From: Minwuia thermotolerans
Lineage (GTDB): Bacteria > Pseudomonadota > Alphaproteobacteria > Minwuiales > Minwuiaceae
Reading direction: 5' to 3'
Assembly (NCBI RefSeq): GCF_002924445.1
Contig: NZ_PIGG01000023.1
Span: 62,001 to 126,000 of the forward strand
Length of the DNA stretch: 64,000 nt
Part shown: positions 19,139 through 43,076 of the stretch, piece by piece
Position numbering within the stretch: position 1 is the stretch's first letter
Layout: every line of letters starts with the position of its first letter
The notes under the pieces: model-generated
Database searches by the model: none
The model's input: the letters and a program-made list of their open reading frames with translations, nothing else
What the model was told of the DNA's origin: nothing
Program-made: the position numbers and the translations under genes

Positions 19139-20298
19139 GCCCTGACTATAGCAGCGACCGGCCGGCGCGGCGTCGGTCCCGGCGCCGCCGCGTGACCCAG
19201 ACGGACCAGCATCTGGACATGCGCCGGCGGTTCGGCCGCAAGCGCATCCAGCAGCCGCGCCTGCAGGTCCGCCATTTCCGGATATTCCTGCAGAAGCTGG
19301 CTCATGGGGTGCAGCGCGACGCCGGATACGGTCGCCTGCAGATTGAGGCGCACATAGTCCATGCCGGCGCGGATCTGGCTCGCGCGGCTGTTGTCGGGGC
19401 TCACCACCCAGGCGAAACCCATCGCCGTCTGCGCCTGGTCGCGGGCCATGTCCAGGCCGATCTGGAACGACTGGGTGCCGGGCGTGGCGATGGCTTCCCG
19501 GCTGACGAACCCCAGCCGGGTACCCCACCAGATCATCGGACCGGCGAGTTCGATGCCGTCCGGGTTGCGGGCGATCTCCTCCGGTCCCAGCCGCATCAGG
19601 TCGATGCTTTCCCTGAACGTGCGGGGCGTCTCGATCTCACGGCGGAGCCCGGCCTCCATGAGGTCGCGCAGCACCGGCCGCAGCGCCGGATCGTTGCTGC
19701 CCATCACCCGCGCGCCATGCAGACCCGGACCGGTCAGCGCCGCCAGTTCGCCGTCCGTCACCGGGCGGGCGATATCGTAGGTTTCCTTGTTGCTGCGGCG
19801 AGTACCGACCGCCGCGAACAGCGGATCGCGGATGACCACCGGGTCGCGAACGAGGCGAAGGCGGGCCACCGGCCGGCCGTCCAGACGCTCCGGCGCGAAG
19901 GAGCCTTCGGGCAGCAGTTCGATTTCGGCGCGGTGGCCGCTCTCGGCCGCGGCCATACGGTATATTTCCAGAAATGTCCCGTGGCCGATCAGGATCTGCC
20001 GGCCCGGCGGATCGGTTTCCGGCAGCAGGCGATCGAGGTCGACATGCAGCGTCAGCGCGTTATCGCCTTCCAGGCGCAGCAGCCAAGGCTGCATGTTGTG
20101 CGGATTCGGCGCCAGCAGGGCGTGAGCAGCCGCGCGGATACGGGGATCGTCGATCCCCTGCCCCGGCGCCCGCCATGGGGCGACCGCGCTGTCGGGCATC
20201 GCGCCCCGGGTCATCGCCCAGTAGCCGCCCCCCGCCGTCAGCGCGGCAACCCCACCGCCCACACCCATGATCCTGATGAACTTCCGCCGCGAGACCAT
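19135..20298 (-). CDS. Tat-exported nitroreductase-like (Acg family) protein
   Basis: This 387-residue protein opens with a twin-arginine signal (SRRKFIRIMGVGGG, about 3-16), so it is probably exported folded with its flavin. The body resembles the Acg/nitroreductase-like FMN proteins: NPHNMQPWLL (about 64-73), TRRSNKETYDI (about 166-176) and GMDYVRLNLQATVSGVALHPMSQ (about 315-337), which form the FMN pocket in the family. Family members bind or sequester flavin in the periplasm. It heads a two-gene unit with the MarR regulator, a common arrangement for redox or antibiotic-responsive control. Confidence 0.78.
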   Translation of the reverse strand: MVSRRKFIRIMGVGGGVAALTAGGGYWAMTRGAMPDSAVAPWRAPGQGIDDPRIRAAAHALLAPNPHNMQPWLLRLEGDNALTLHVDLDRLLPETDPPGRQILIGHGTFLEIYRMAAAESGHRAEIELLPEGSFAPERLDGRPVARLRLVRDPVVIRDPLFAAVGTRRSNKETYDIARPVTDGELAALTGPGLHGARVMGSNDPALRPVLRDLMEAGLRREIETPRTFRESIDLMRLGPEEIARNPDGIELAGPMIWWGTRLGFVSREAIATPGTQSFQIGLDMARDQAQTAMGFAWVVSPDNSRASQIRAGMDYVRLNLQATVSGVALHPMSQLLQEYPEMADLQARLLDALAAEPPAHVQMLVRLGHAAAPGPTPRRPVAAIVRA

Positions 20299-20309
20299 CG
20301 CCGTTCTCC

Positions 20310-20351
20310 ATAGAAATATTCTATGGAATATATATACACATTCTCAAGAAT
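20310..20351. promoter_or_regulatory. Two palindromes in the nitroreductase/MarR promoter
   Basis: ATAGAAATATTCTAT (20310-20324) has arms ATAGAA/TTCTAT, and ATTCTCAAGAAT (20340-20351) has arms ATTCT/AGAAT. Both share the TTCT/AGAA core and lie 12-53 bases upstream of the ATG at 20298, in an AT-rich patch. MarR proteins bind such short palindromes, so autorepression is likely. The divergent sulfatase gene at 20411 may share this control. Confidence 0.55.
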
Positions 20352-20410
20352 ATATCAAACGGAATTGCAGCGGCCCGAGGCGATTGGAGGCGGCGCCACA
20401 CGCGACTAGG

Positions 20411-22015
20411 ATGTCGGCGGACAGTGCATCGGGAACGGAAGCCTTGGGCGAACCACGCAATATCCTCTTCGTGATGGCGGACCAGCTCCGCTTCGATTTC
20501 CTGGGCTGCACGGGCCATCCCTGGATGCGGACGCCGACCATCGACGCGCTGGCCGCCCGGGGGGTGCGGTTCGCCAACGCCTTCGTGCAGGGCGCGGTCT
20601 GCGGACCGTCGCGCATGTCCTTCTACACGGGCCGCTACGTCCTCAGTCACGGGGCCAGCTACAACAATTATCCGCTCCGGCCGGACGAATGGACGCTGGG
20701 TGACTATCTGAACCCGCTGGGACTGCGGACGGCGCTGGCCGGCAAGACGCACATGAAGGCGGACGAGGCCGCTATCCGCCGCCTCGGTCTAGATCCTGCC
20801 GAAGGACCGGGGCGGTTCCTGGCCGAGTGCGGCTTCGAGCCTTGGGACCGCGACGACGGGCTGCAGAAACTGGCGCCGTTCGTCCCCGACACGCAGTACG
20901 AAGCCTGGCTTCGCGGCCGCGGCTACGAGGGCGTGAACCTGTGGCACGAGGTCGCCAATTCGGTGCGCCGCGGCGACGGTGGCGACCCGTCGGGCTGGCT
21001 GATGCGCAACGCCCGCTTCCCGACAGTGGCCGCGGAGGAGGACAGCGAGACCGCCTACATGACGCGCCGCGCCATGGACTTCATCGACGACGCCGGGGAG
21101 CGGCCCTGGTGCCTGCACCTCTCCTACATCAAGCCGCACTGGCCCTATGTCGCACCGGATCCCTATCACCGGAAATACGGGCGCGAGCATGTCCTGCCGG
21201 GCAATCGGAGCGAAGGCGAAGGCGAGACTCATCCCGTGGTGGCCGCCTTCCGCGATCACCCGGAATCCATCGAATTCCGGCGCGACGAATGCCGCGACAC
21301 CGTGATTCCGACGTACATGGGCCTGATCGAGCAGATCGACGACCATCTGGGGCGGCTGATCGATTTCCTGGACGATCGCGGACGTCTGGCGGACACGGTC
21401 ATCGTCGTCACCAGCGATCATGGCGACTATCTCGGCGACCATGGCCTGGGCGAGAAGGAACTCCATTTCGAGGAGGCGCTGCGCATTCCGCTGATCGTCG
21501 TCGACCCCTCCCCGGCCGCCGAAGGGAGCCGCGGGCGGGTGATCGAAGCCATGGCGGAAGCCATAGACCTGATCCCGACGCTGATTGAGCTGGTCGGTGG
21601 AGCGCCCGCCTGGCACCGCCTGGAGGGCCGTTCCCTCCTGCCCTTCATCCGCGGCGATGGCGCTGCCGGCTGGCGCGACGCCGTCTTCGCCGAGCATGAC
21701 TATTCCCTGCGCCACGCCCGGCCGGCGCTGGGGTTGGAACCGCAGGAGGCGAAGTCATGGATGGTGCGGACGGAACGCTGGAAATTCGTCCGCCATCCCC
21801 GCTTTCGTCCGGAGCTCTACGATCTGGAGAACGACCCCTCCGAGCAGATCGATCTCGGCGCCGATCCCGGCCACGAGGACGTTCGCAGTGATATGCAGCA
21901 CCGGCTGCTGGACTGGATGCAGGCGCGGCTCAACCGCGTGGGCATCACCGACGAAGCCATCCGCCAAAGCACCGGCAAGGCGTGGGAACGAGGCTATCTG
22001 TTCGGCAGGTGGTAG
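20411..22015 (+). CDS. Sulfatase / phosphonate monoester hydrolase family enzyme
   Basis: This 534-residue alkaline-phosphatase-superfamily enzyme hydrolyses a sulfate or phosphonate ester. It has NILFVMADQLRFDF (about 17-30, metal ligand Asp24) and the formylglycine motif CGPSR with Cys64 and Arg68, continuing into FYTG. HWPYVAPDPYH and the metal motif VVTSDHGDYLGDHGLGEKE (about 325-343) are also present. There is no signal peptide, so it acts in the cytoplasm, unlike most arylsulfatases; choline-sulfatase or phosphonate monoester hydrolase-like activity is possible. It needs a formylglycine-generating enzyme, which is not in the window. Confidence 0.85.
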   Translation: MSADSASGTEALGEPRNILFVMADQLRFDFLGCTGHPWMRTPTIDALAARGVRFANAFVQGAVCGPSRMSFYTGRYVLSHGASYNNYPLRPDEWTLGDYLNPLGLRTALAGKTHMKADEAAIRRLGLDPAEGPGRFLAECGFEPWDRDDGLQKLAPFVPDTQYEAWLRGRGYEGVNLWHEVANSVRRGDGGDPSGWLMRNARFPTVAAEEDSETAYMTRRAMDFIDDAGERPWCLHLSYIKPHWPYVAPDPYHRKYGREHVLPGNRSEGEGETHPVVAAFRDHPESIEFRRDECRDTVIPTYMGLIEQIDDHLGRLIDFLDDRGRLADTVIVVTSDHGDYLGDHGLGEKELHFEEALRIPLIVVDPSPAAEGSRGRVIEAMAEAIDLIPTLIELVGGAPAWHRLEGRSLLPFIRGDGAAGWRDAVFAEHDYSLRHARPALGLEPQEAKSWMVRTERWKFVRHPRFRPELYDLENDPSEQIDLGADPGHEDVRSDMQHRLLDWMQARLNRVGITDEAIRQSTGKAWERGYLFGRW

Positions 22016-22016
22016 G

Positions 22017-22078
22017 AAAAAACAAAGCCCGCCGTCCGGCTGAAAGAGAGGGGGGACTTTCAGGACCGGACGACGGGC
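22017..22078 (-). terminator. Intrinsic terminator reading on the reverse strand
   Basis: A hairpin has outer arms GCCCGCCGTCCGG (from 22027) and CCGGACGACGGGC (to 22078, one bulged base) and inner arms CTGAAAG/CTTTCAG. On the reverse strand it is followed by TTTGTTTTTT (22017-22026). No reverse-strand protein gene ends here, so the terminated transcript would be non-coding. On the forward strand it lies 12 bases past the sulfatase stop, but no T-run follows, so it may only stabilise that mRNA's 3' end. Confidence 0.6.
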
Positions 22079-22200
22079 CAGTATTTGGTGGAAACGACGG
22101 GTCTCAGGTCGGTCCCGGTGGATCGGGTCGCAGGAGGGGTGATTGTCCACCGGTTCCTGATGTGAAACCCTTTTATGTCGTTTCCTGGCAGTTTCCTTGG
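22017..22200 (-). ncRNA. Candidate structured RNA on the reverse strand
   Basis: Between the sulfatase stop and the AraC gene lie 392 bases without a coding sequence. Four pairs of complementary segments are nested in strict order: GGAAACGAC (22090-22098) with GTCGTTTCC (22177-22185), GGGT (22099-22102) with ACCC (22167-22170), CAGG (22105-22108) with CCTG (22156-22159), and CCGGTGGA (22115-22122) with TCCACCGG (22146-22153). On the reverse strand this rod is followed by a long hairpin (22027-22078) and TTTGTTTTTT, a standard intrinsic terminator. The layout recalls a rod with internal bulges, as in 6S RNA, but identity is not shown. The 5' end is uncertain. The upstream part also has a hairpin with arms CCGCCAA/TTGGCGG (about 22291-22322). 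Confidence 0.4.
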
Positions 22201-22407
22201 ACGGTCCGGGCAGGTGGAGGGGGGCACCTGACTATGATCGGAACGTCCGCGGAACGCTGCCTTGAACCCGATATGTGTCTTGCTTCGCGGTCCGCCAAGG
22301 GCCGAATTAAGGCATTTTGGCGGCACACGGATGGGTGATGGCCGGCGCTCTACGATCTCATAGCCGTGAAGACCGAGCGTCGCTCAGCCGCAGGTTCAAG
22401 AAGGTCT

Positions 22408-23469
22408 ATGAACGAAGATATTGAAATCGTTGCCCGCTTGCTCGCGATCGGGGTCAATACTGTCATTGCGGCGGTGTTTCTTGCCGTCCATCCGCGTCGG
22501 ATCGGCGCATGGCTGATGGCGCTGCTCGCCGTTTCCGTGGTCGGGTATCTCTGGCTTTCGGGGCCCTGGAACGCCACGGAAGTCCCGGCGGCGCTCCGCG
22601 GCGCAGTGGGCGCCTGGACGGCGCTGATTCCTTTCCTGGTCTGGGTCATTGCGCGCATGCACCTCGAAGACGGTTTCCGCCCTGGCTGGATCTGGATACC
22701 GGGTCTGTTCGTCGCCTGGCTCGCCGTGTGGCTCATCGATCATTCCGGCGAGTGGCAGACCGCCCTGCGCGACGGGGTTCGCATTGCCGGGCTCGGCGCT
22801 CTGATTGACGTCGCGCGGCGCGCGCTGCAGGGACGACCGGACGATCTCGTCGCGCTGCGCCGTGGGCTCCGCCTCACATTCGCAGCAGCCTCCGTCGGAA
22901 TCACCGCCGTCGTTCTCGCCGTGGAACTGATCCTTTCGGACGCCGTCGCGCGCGCGCCACTGGAACCCATTGCGGCGGTGGCCATACTCGTCATGAGTAC
23001 GCTGTCCGCGATGGTGCTGCTGCGTCCGCGCGGAGAACTGTTTGTCAATCAGACCATATCGACGCGGCCACACAAGACAGTTGCGGGCGACGCATCCGCC
23101 CCCGACGAAGATGCCGAGCTGGCCCGGCGTATCGAAGCGCACGCGGCGGCCGGCGAGTTGTTCAAGCCGGAGCTTTCCATCACAGCATTGGCCACGGAAC
23201 TGGGTGCGCCGGAATACCGATTGCGCCGTGCGATCAACCGCCATCTCGGCTACCGCAACTTCCCGGCCTTTCTCAACCACTACCGGATCGAGGAGGCAAG
23301 ACGCCGATTCGCCGATCCAGCCAATGACCGGCTGCCGATCCTGACGATCGCGATGGATCTCGGTTACGGATCGGTTGGTCCCTTCAACCGTGCATTCCGC
23401 GAACTGACCGGGCAGACACCGTCCGCCTTCCGCCGTCAGATCGCCAGTCGCCGGTCCGCCGATTCCTGA
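22408..23469 (+). CDS. Membrane-anchored AraC-family regulator
   Basis: The 353-residue protein joins about seven hydrophobic helices (residues 5-215) to a cytoplasmic AraC DNA-binding domain (about 240-350). The second domain shows LSITALATELGAPEYRLRRAINRHLGYRNFPAFLNHYRIEEARRRF cut by two HTH motifs, with MDLGYGSVGPFNRAFRELTGQTPSAFRR as the second. AraC proteins with a membrane half are often next to sterol desaturase-like genes, as here, and may sense a lipid. The ATG at 22408 is preceded by AAGAAGG at a short distance; an in-frame codon at 22366 is the alternative. Confidence 0.82.
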   Translation: MNEDIEIVARLLAIGVNTVIAAVFLAVHPRRIGAWLMALLAVSVVGYLWLSGPWNATEVPAALRGAVGAWTALIPFLVWVIARMHLEDGFRPGWIWIPGLFVAWLAVWLIDHSGEWQTALRDGVRIAGLGALIDVARRALQGRPDDLVALRRGLRLTFAAASVGITAVVLAVELILSDAVARAPLEPIAAVAILVMSTLSAMVLLRPRGELFVNQTISTRPHKTVAGDASAPDEDAELARRIEAHAAAGELFKPELSITALATELGAPEYRLRRAINRHLGYRNFPAFLNHYRIEEARRRFADPANDRLPILTIAMDLGYGSVGPFNRAFRELTGQTPSAFRRQIASRRSADS

Positions 23470-23574
23470 AAAAGCTGTCCGATTGACGAAAGGACCGGTT
23501 GGTTTCCGAATTCGGCCAGACCTGCCGGCGTGAATGGGCCAGAGCGTGGGCGATCCAATGAACAGGAGATCGCC

Positions 23575-24435
23575 ATGGAATGGCTCGAACCGATCGTGGG
23601 CCTGCTGACCCGATTCCCCGAGATATGGCCGCGGATACTTCTGACCGACACGGCCCGGTACTTCGTCTTCGCCGCGCCGGCGGCGCTGCTGATTGCACTG
23701 GCCGGCGGGCGCGCCAGCCGTTGGCGCATCCAGAACCGGCGCCCCGGCCTGCGTGATCGCCGTCGCGAAATCGGCTTTTCATTGCTCACCGCAATCGTCT
23801 TCTCGCTCAACGGCTTCTTTCTCGTCTACGGTCTTGATTGGCTGGGCCTCGCGGAGCTTCGCAGCGGCAACTGCGCCCTCACGATCACGATCGAGACCGT
23901 GGTTCTCATCGTGCTCCACGACGCCTATTTCTACTGGATGCACCGCGCGTTGCACTGGCGACCGCTGTTTCGCGCGGCCCATGTCACCCATCATCGCTCG
24001 CGCACGCCCTCGCCCTGGGCCGCCTATGCCTTCGCGCCCCTGGAGGCCTTGCTCGAAGCAGCCTTCCTGCCAATCGCGCTGCTCGCGGCAGGCGGCCTTG
24101 AAACGGTCAGCATCTCGATCTTTATCGTGCACATGATGGCGCGCAATGTCATGGGCCATTGCGGCCACGAATTCCTGCCGCGGCGCTGGGTGAACTGGCC
24201 GCTGACACGCTGGCTGACCACGCCCACCCATCACGACATCCATCATGAACTGGGGCGATGGAACTACGGTCTCTACTTCACCTGGTGGGACCGCTGGATG
24301 AATACCGAACACCCGGCATATCCCGAACGCTTCCGCGCCGCCGCCGCCGGGCGCGCGACGAAACCCGGCCCGCCTTCGGAAACGGGTCTCACGGAGCTTC
24401 TCCGCCGCAGCATCATCGGATGGTGGAGCGGGTGA
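23575..24435 (+). CDS. Sterol desaturase / fatty acid hydroxylase family protein
   Basis: This 286-residue integral membrane di-iron enzyme has several hydrophobic helices and the histidine clusters of the superfamily: HDAYFYWMHRALHW (about 116-129), HVTHH (about 137-141), GHCGHEF (about 194-200) and THHDIHHELGRWNYGL (about 218-233). These bind two irons that activate oxygen to hydroxylate or desaturate a lipid. AGGAG lies eight bases before the ATG at 23575. About 105 bases separate it from the AraC regulator upstream, suggesting control by that protein. The lipid substrate is unknown; true sterol synthesis is unlikely from the window. Confidence 0.85.
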   Translation: MEWLEPIVGLLTRFPEIWPRILLTDTARYFVFAAPAALLIALAGGRASRWRIQNRRPGLRDRRREIGFSLLTAIVFSLNGFFLVYGLDWLGLAELRSGNCALTITIETVVLIVLHDAYFYWMHRALHWRPLFRAAHVTHHRSRTPSPWAAYAFAPLEALLEAAFLPIALLAAGGLETVSISIFIVHMMARNVMGHCGHEFLPRRWVNWPLTRWLTTPTHHDIHHELGRWNYGLYFTWWDRWMNTEHPAYPERFRAAAAGRATKPGPPSETGLTELLRRSIIGWWSG

Positions 24436-42999: not shown

Positions 43000-43076
43000 G
43001 GCCCCTTAGCTCAGCCGGATAGAGCGACAGATTCCTAATCTGTAGGTCGCAGGTTCGAGTCCTGCAGGGGTCGCCA
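43000..43076 (+). tRNA. tRNA-Arg (anticodon CCT)
   Basis: A complete cloverleaf of 77 bases. The acceptor arms GGCCCCT and AGGGGTC pair, with one G-T. The D-arm is GCTCAGCCGGATAGAGC, the anticodon stem ACAGA/TCTGT has loop TTCCTAA giving anticodon CCT, and the T-arm is GCAGGTTCGAGTCCTGC. The 3' CCA is encoded. It reads AGG codons. No integrase or attachment duplication is seen beside it. Confidence 0.95.

Follow-up and report, generated by a model that had tools for sequence, protein, structure and literature searches.

The window, that is, the whole 64,000-nucleotide stretch of Minwuia thermotolerans DNA analysed here, contains a 392-base gap (22016-22407) in which reading of the ORFs gave no convincing protein gene. 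Minwuia belongs to the Minwuiales, Alphaproteobacteria, and a genus-name search of the literature, covering titles only, returned nothing on its small RNAs. A preliminary description, made from the letters of the window, had given the gap the size confirmed here from the end of the sulfatase ORF and the next ATG, and had proposed that its reverse strand encodes a stable small RNA, possibly 6S RNA, flanked by a promoter and a terminator of its own. We asked whether the gap harbors an independent RNA gene and, if so, to which kind of RNA it may belong.

Fold, terminator and promoter-like elements of the minus strand

Folding of the minus strand between positions 22340 and 22000 gave an energy of -142.1 kcal/mol (z -6.9) against a mean of -103.7 (sd 5.6) for shuffled sequences, none of 100 being as low. 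When the RNA was trimmed to its predicted ends, the 5' end being placed from the position of the -10-like hexamer, z was -8.6 versus -4.7 on the opposite strand, and all six sequences tested showed sense-strand values of -5.0 to -9.5 and antisense values of -2.0 to -4.7. The predicted fold consisted of three successive long hairpins in all six sequences folded. The strong minus-strand folding expected from four pairs of complementary segments was borne out, while their nested order and the 6S-like rod shape derived from it gave way to three consecutive hairpins. The reverse-strand hairpin followed by a T-run is present as first described, and relatives carry shorter T-rich tails after hairpin 3. 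A simple terminator scan of the locus listed none, we think because the predicted loop of hairpin 3 exceeds the 8 bases of the scan.

The promoter-like pair, originally read as TTGGCG and CATATC 17 bases apart, was found shifted by one base as CTTGGC and ACATAT, and its 17-base spacing is kept in the six aligned species; the hexamers lie within the invariant blocks CCCTTGGCGG and CACATATC, while most of the spacer is variable (13 of 17 columns). The pair resembles alphaproteobacterial housekeeping or heat-shock promoters; a strict sigma-70 scan of the locus listed no promoter. CTTGGC-N17-ACATATC precedes the RNA in all six genomes where this region is readable and is nearly unique genome-wide: with a spacer of 15 to 19 bases it occurred seven times in the seven genomes, six times before the RNA and once elsewhere in G004, the count of 0 in G005 being due to a contig end there. 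The promoter is absent in L004, whose contig begins 20 bases ahead of the RNA. Further upstream, the GTGTGCC..AATT block is a possible activator site; the pattern, which was derived from the same sequences, matched once per genome in six of the seven genomes. Both a conserved promoter-like pair and a hairpin with T-run, as expected for a trans-acting Hfq small RNA with a promoter and intrinsic terminator of its own, can be read in the sequence, and a gene for Hfq was found in all seven genus genomes. Coordinates are given in Table 1.

Table 1. Features of the RNA locus and its borders, in window coordinates.
Feature	Position	Strand	Observation
Sulfatase gene	20267-22015	+	ORF end at 22015, left edge of the gap
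Putative small RNA, about 245 bases	22017..22264	-	Fold z -8.6; covariance model; 7/7 genus genomes
Terminator T-run TTTGTTTTTT	22017..22026	-	Sequence; directly after hairpin 3
Hairpin 3 (H3), terminator stem	22027..22079	-	Predicted fold; covariation
Hairpin 3 C-rich loop CCCCCCUC	22048..22055	-	Mean predicted unpaired 1.00
Hairpin 2 (H2)	22090..22185	-	Predicted fold; covariation
18 invariant bases CCCUCCUGCGACCCGAUC, loop of hairpin 2	22121..22138	-	0 mismatches in 7/7 genus genomes; predicted unpaired
Hairpin 1 (H1)	22187..22261	-	Predicted fold; covariation
Hairpin 1 C-rich loop CCCCCCUCC	22216..22224	-	Mean predicted unpaired 0.89
-10-like hexamer ACATAT	22271..22276	-	Invariant inside 8-base invariant block, 6 aligned species
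-35-like hexamer CTTGGC	22294..22299	-	Invariant inside 10-base invariant block, 6 aligned species
Upstream block GTGTGCC..AATT	22305..22328	-	Aligned in 6/6 readable species
AraC-type regulator	ATG at 22408	+	Right edge of the gap

Conservation, covariation and genomic setting

BLAST of the region against 60 relatives found a copy with 98% identity in G006, and the five other genomes of the genus gave short matches; the full sequences of these relatives share the promoter, the three hairpins and the C-rich loops. The covariance model built from the seven genus sequences, the window RNA among them, scored the window RNA at 156.6 bits and gave one strong full-length match in each of the seven Minwuia genomes, the E values of 2.4e-38 to 4.4e-62 being those of sequences that had built the model. 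Neither of the two genomes from other genera of the family carried a full-length copy by this model, and the order-level search covered the same nine genomes as the family-level one. Among 385 genomes of the class, searched with stricter filters, five matched, four from Minwuia and one with a 30-base match to the loop only, and none was full-length outside the genus. Scanning the 18 invariant bases over the species-genome collection yielded 21 stretches, five of which were full-length homologs, all from Minwuia, and 16 were not. Since full-length matches were confined to Minwuia across the family, class and species-genome searches, the RNA looks genus-restricted at the sensitivity used.

Several weaker matches were set aside. 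Three further model matches in G000 and G003 (E 0.1-0.2) were not counted as copies, and L009, L010, L013 and L014 are BLAST matches of 20-28 bases. L003 and L008 were rejected as homologs because the DNA match falls in radC ORFs, L011 because it reads like radC, and G360 (L025) because its 30-base match covers loop 2 only; the latter holds no RadC motif. The 19-bit full-length model match at L031:724-524 lies inside an ORF of 335 codons, and its folding does not exceed that of shuffled sequence (z +0.93). Loop 2 itself (window 22151-22122, minus strand) resembles, in the same sense, the radC DNA encoding VHNHPSGDP, with 28 of 30 bases alike in G003 (L003); this likeness is probably due to chance, as the loops of the relatives are less alike.

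Covariation in related genomes, by which the small RNA was to be judged, was found. Changes on both sides that keep pairing were found at 17 of the 66 consensus pairs (8.1 in shuffled alignments) and in 29 cells (9.9 shuffled), the covariation score was 0.251 (0.135 shuffled) and 86.7% of the cells were paired (80.5 shuffled); for each of these measures none of 500 shuffles was as high. Further pair types numbered 31 (26.5 shuffled), with 15 of 500 shuffles as high, and sliding the partner columns by 1-3 positions reduced the paired cells to 33-46%. These figures come from seven rows representing about four divergent lineages, with the structure taken from the same alignment. The pair counts derive from the MAFFT alignment A1, in which hairpin 1 is out of place for the window and G006; alignment of hairpin 1 alone brought its loops into register.

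The genomic position of the RNA falls into two settings. In five relatives it lies 129-291 bases upstream of a gene for an AMP-binding enzyme on the same strand, and a divergent lutA-like gene also adjoins it in the four relatives with long enough contigs. The window and G006 show the other setting: the neighbours are sulfatase and amidohydrolase genes, the RNA and the sulfatase gene are convergent, and no gene follows downstream on the RNA strand. Promoter, hairpins and loops are nevertheless retained there, and in these two genomes the lutA-like gene is located away from the RNA. With filters off, no copy of the RNA was found in the stretch searched at the lutA-like locus of G000, G006, G007 and G008. 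That the promoter and the hairpins persist in either setting favours an independent gene acting in trans. Judged from these comparisons, positions 22264-22017 of the minus strand are a conserved, independent RNA gene, whose expression we infer; the proposal of a stable reverse-strand small RNA that is started and terminated by signals of its own has gained support from covariation, the conserved promoter, strand-biased folding and presence in all seven genomes.

By Pfam, the neighbours of the RNA in the window are a sulfatase, an AraC regulator, a fatty-acid hydroxylase and an amidohydrolase. The genes for the AraC-type regulator and the hydroxylase (22408-24435) lie just upstream of the RNA promoter; this pair is absent at the G006 locus, where the amidohydrolase gene adjoins the promoter side instead. 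The difference is an insertion or a loss of recent date that left the promoter intact.

The C-rich loops and comparison with known RNA families

Each of the three hairpins presents a C-rich motif, predicted to be unpaired (0.82-1.00) except in hairpin 1 of L007 (0.38); hairpin 2 of the window exposes CCCCUCCUGCGACCCGAUC in the predicted fold. The 18 bases CCCUCCUGCGACCCGAUC are unchanged in all seven genomes, third codon positions included, while the surrounding stems vary, a pattern that points to a pairing seed more than to a coding constraint or a purely structural one. Searches for the extended complement of loop 2 with up to 3 mismatches gave 119 places in the seven genomes, about equally on both strands and including the seven RNA copies, versus 23 for the reversed pattern, an excess that we put down to composition and coding. 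Of the 37 places examined among these 119, seven are the RNA itself, a few lie ahead of possible starts (L063, L064, L073, L075, L078 and L087), and none proved to be shared between genomes at a ribosome site. L087, a ribosome-site-like match ahead of a 127-codon ORF, occurs in G000 only, and a similar match in G006 stands in another setting. Complementarity alone proves little, because in GC-rich DNA a C-rich loop will be complementary to any Shine-Dalgarno sequence.

No Rfam family matched the RNA locus in the window, whose sole Rfam gathering match was a tRNA gene (43000-43073, plus strand); searches of L002, L005 and L006 gave no match within the RNA and two weak matches outside it. 6S RNA (RF00013) was matched elsewhere in six of the seven genus genomes, four of them over the cut-off. 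Its scores were 60-67 bits in relatives and 44.1 in G006, with none in G001, and the match at G000:C14:44626-44786 reached 45.6 bits, just below the Rfam cut-off of 46.4.

The closest counterpart in plan is NfeR1 (ar14, RF02344) of Sinorhizobium meliloti, which is described as forming three hairpins with varying stems, each bearing an anti-Shine-Dalgarno motif, and as silencing ntrB mRNA via these motifs (PMC10746234). The Minwuia RNA shares the three hairpins, each with a C-rich loop predicted unpaired, apart from the L007 case given above. The two differ in length, with 123 positions in the ar14 model and about 245 bases in Minwuia, and also in their loops: those of ar14 carry an identical CCUCCUCCC, whereas the Minwuia loops differ (CCCCCCUCC, CCCCUCCUGCGACCCGAUC and CCCCCCUC) and the second holds the 18 invariant bases. 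Up to E 5 the ar14 model did not match the locus, and it gave nothing over the cut-off in the seven genomes; sub-threshold matches appeared elsewhere in all seven and also in three of 14 control genomes, and none of the 12 places listed is the RNA locus. Eight of these 12 carry two C-rich motifs of the CUCCUCCCC or CCUCCCC type (G000:C68:110328-110411, which is L118, and L115, L116, L119, L120, L122, L124 and L125), which suggests that the genus probably has other, separate small RNAs with anti-Shine-Dalgarno loops.

The CcsR or 'cuckoo' RNAs of Rhodobacter and other alphaproteobacteria likewise are small RNAs with C-rich, anti-Shine-Dalgarno-like loops. CcsR1-4 are cut by RNase E from a transcript shared with the DUF1127 gene ccaF1 (PMC10253847), whereas the Minwuia RNA is a single RNA with its own promoter-like pair, and no DUF1127 gene was seen among its Pfam-assigned neighbours. 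SisA-D of Caulobacter crescentus, compared here by description only, have an anti-Shine-Dalgarno signature as well and repress multiple targets, and differ in being four siblings with a common 10-base motif (PMC12559287). GsrN of Caulobacter resembles the Minwuia RNA in that a C-rich loop pairs with mRNA and in its narrow distribution, BLASTn matches being limited to one family; it differs in structure and in its single 5' C-rich loop, which activates katG (PMC5869019).

Alternative explanations and significance

The explanation that we consider probable is a trans-acting small-RNA gene whose C-rich, anti-Shine-Dalgarno-like loops pair with ribosome-binding sites, and our best reading is that the RNA may work like ar14/NfeR1 without belonging to the ar14 family. 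It would be transcribed from the conserved promoter-like pair, terminate at hairpin 3 and act in trans, probably with Hfq. Its loops, anti-Shine-Dalgarno-like in that CCCUCC faces GGAGGG, would pair with GGAGG-like ribosome-binding sites of several mRNAs and so block translation, and the main seed would be the invariant 18-base stretch of loop 2. The repetition of a similar single-stranded motif in three hairpins could also indicate an RNA that sequesters an RNA-binding protein and pairs with no mRNA, as CsrB sequesters CsrA through GGA loops. We regard this as unlikely: the loops are not identical, the 18 invariant bases exceed the need of a short protein site, and CsrA prefers GGA loops, not C-rich ones. 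Somewhat less likely still, the RNA would curb translation globally as a decoy confined to the genus, its three anti-Shine-Dalgarno-like copies rivalling the tail of 16S rRNA for numerous mRNAs simultaneously, and loop 2 would have one or a few privileged targets in addition. That the C-rich loops act as a sponge for a G-rich regulatory RNA is improbable; a comparable circuit exists in Caulobacter, where CrfA counters SisA-D, but there it is the regulators that hold the anti-Shine-Dalgarno motif, and in Minwuia the RNA itself does (PMC12559287).

The AMP-binding gene found downstream in all five relatives examined would suit a cis-acting 5' leader or attenuator, a reading to which we give slightly less chance than to the sponge; as the sole role it was rejected on the two genomic settings, the RNA of the window and G006 keeping its elements with no gene to lead into. 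Hairpin 2 is overlapped by an 18-codon ATG ORF (MRSGGTL...) in L004, L006, L007 and L012, which extends to 39 codons in L005, so the transcript could be the messenger of a small protein. This is very improbable, and a small-protein gene was rejected, since the ORF is missing from the window and G006; moreover, the stems covary, and 18 bases without any change at third codon positions point to a constraint acting on bases, not on codons. 6S RNA, the identity first suggested for this structured, terminated RNA, is likewise a stable structured RNA encoded by a gene of its own. Nevertheless, 6S RNA is built as a single rod with a large bulge at its centre, while the Minwuia RNA forms three successive hairpins and its locus matched no Rfam 6S model; the fold and the 6S matches elsewhere in six of the seven genomes rule this identity out, leaving it next to no probability.

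The trans-acting reading concerns a well-supported RNA family that is absent from Rfam, a new family of multi-loop regulatory RNA. Its plan of three hairpins with C-rich loops resembles that of rhizobial ar14 without homology detectable by the ar14 model, so that convergence on multi-site anti-Shine-Dalgarno RNAs can be tested, and loop 2, through its 18 invariant bases, offers a sharp clue to a conserved target.
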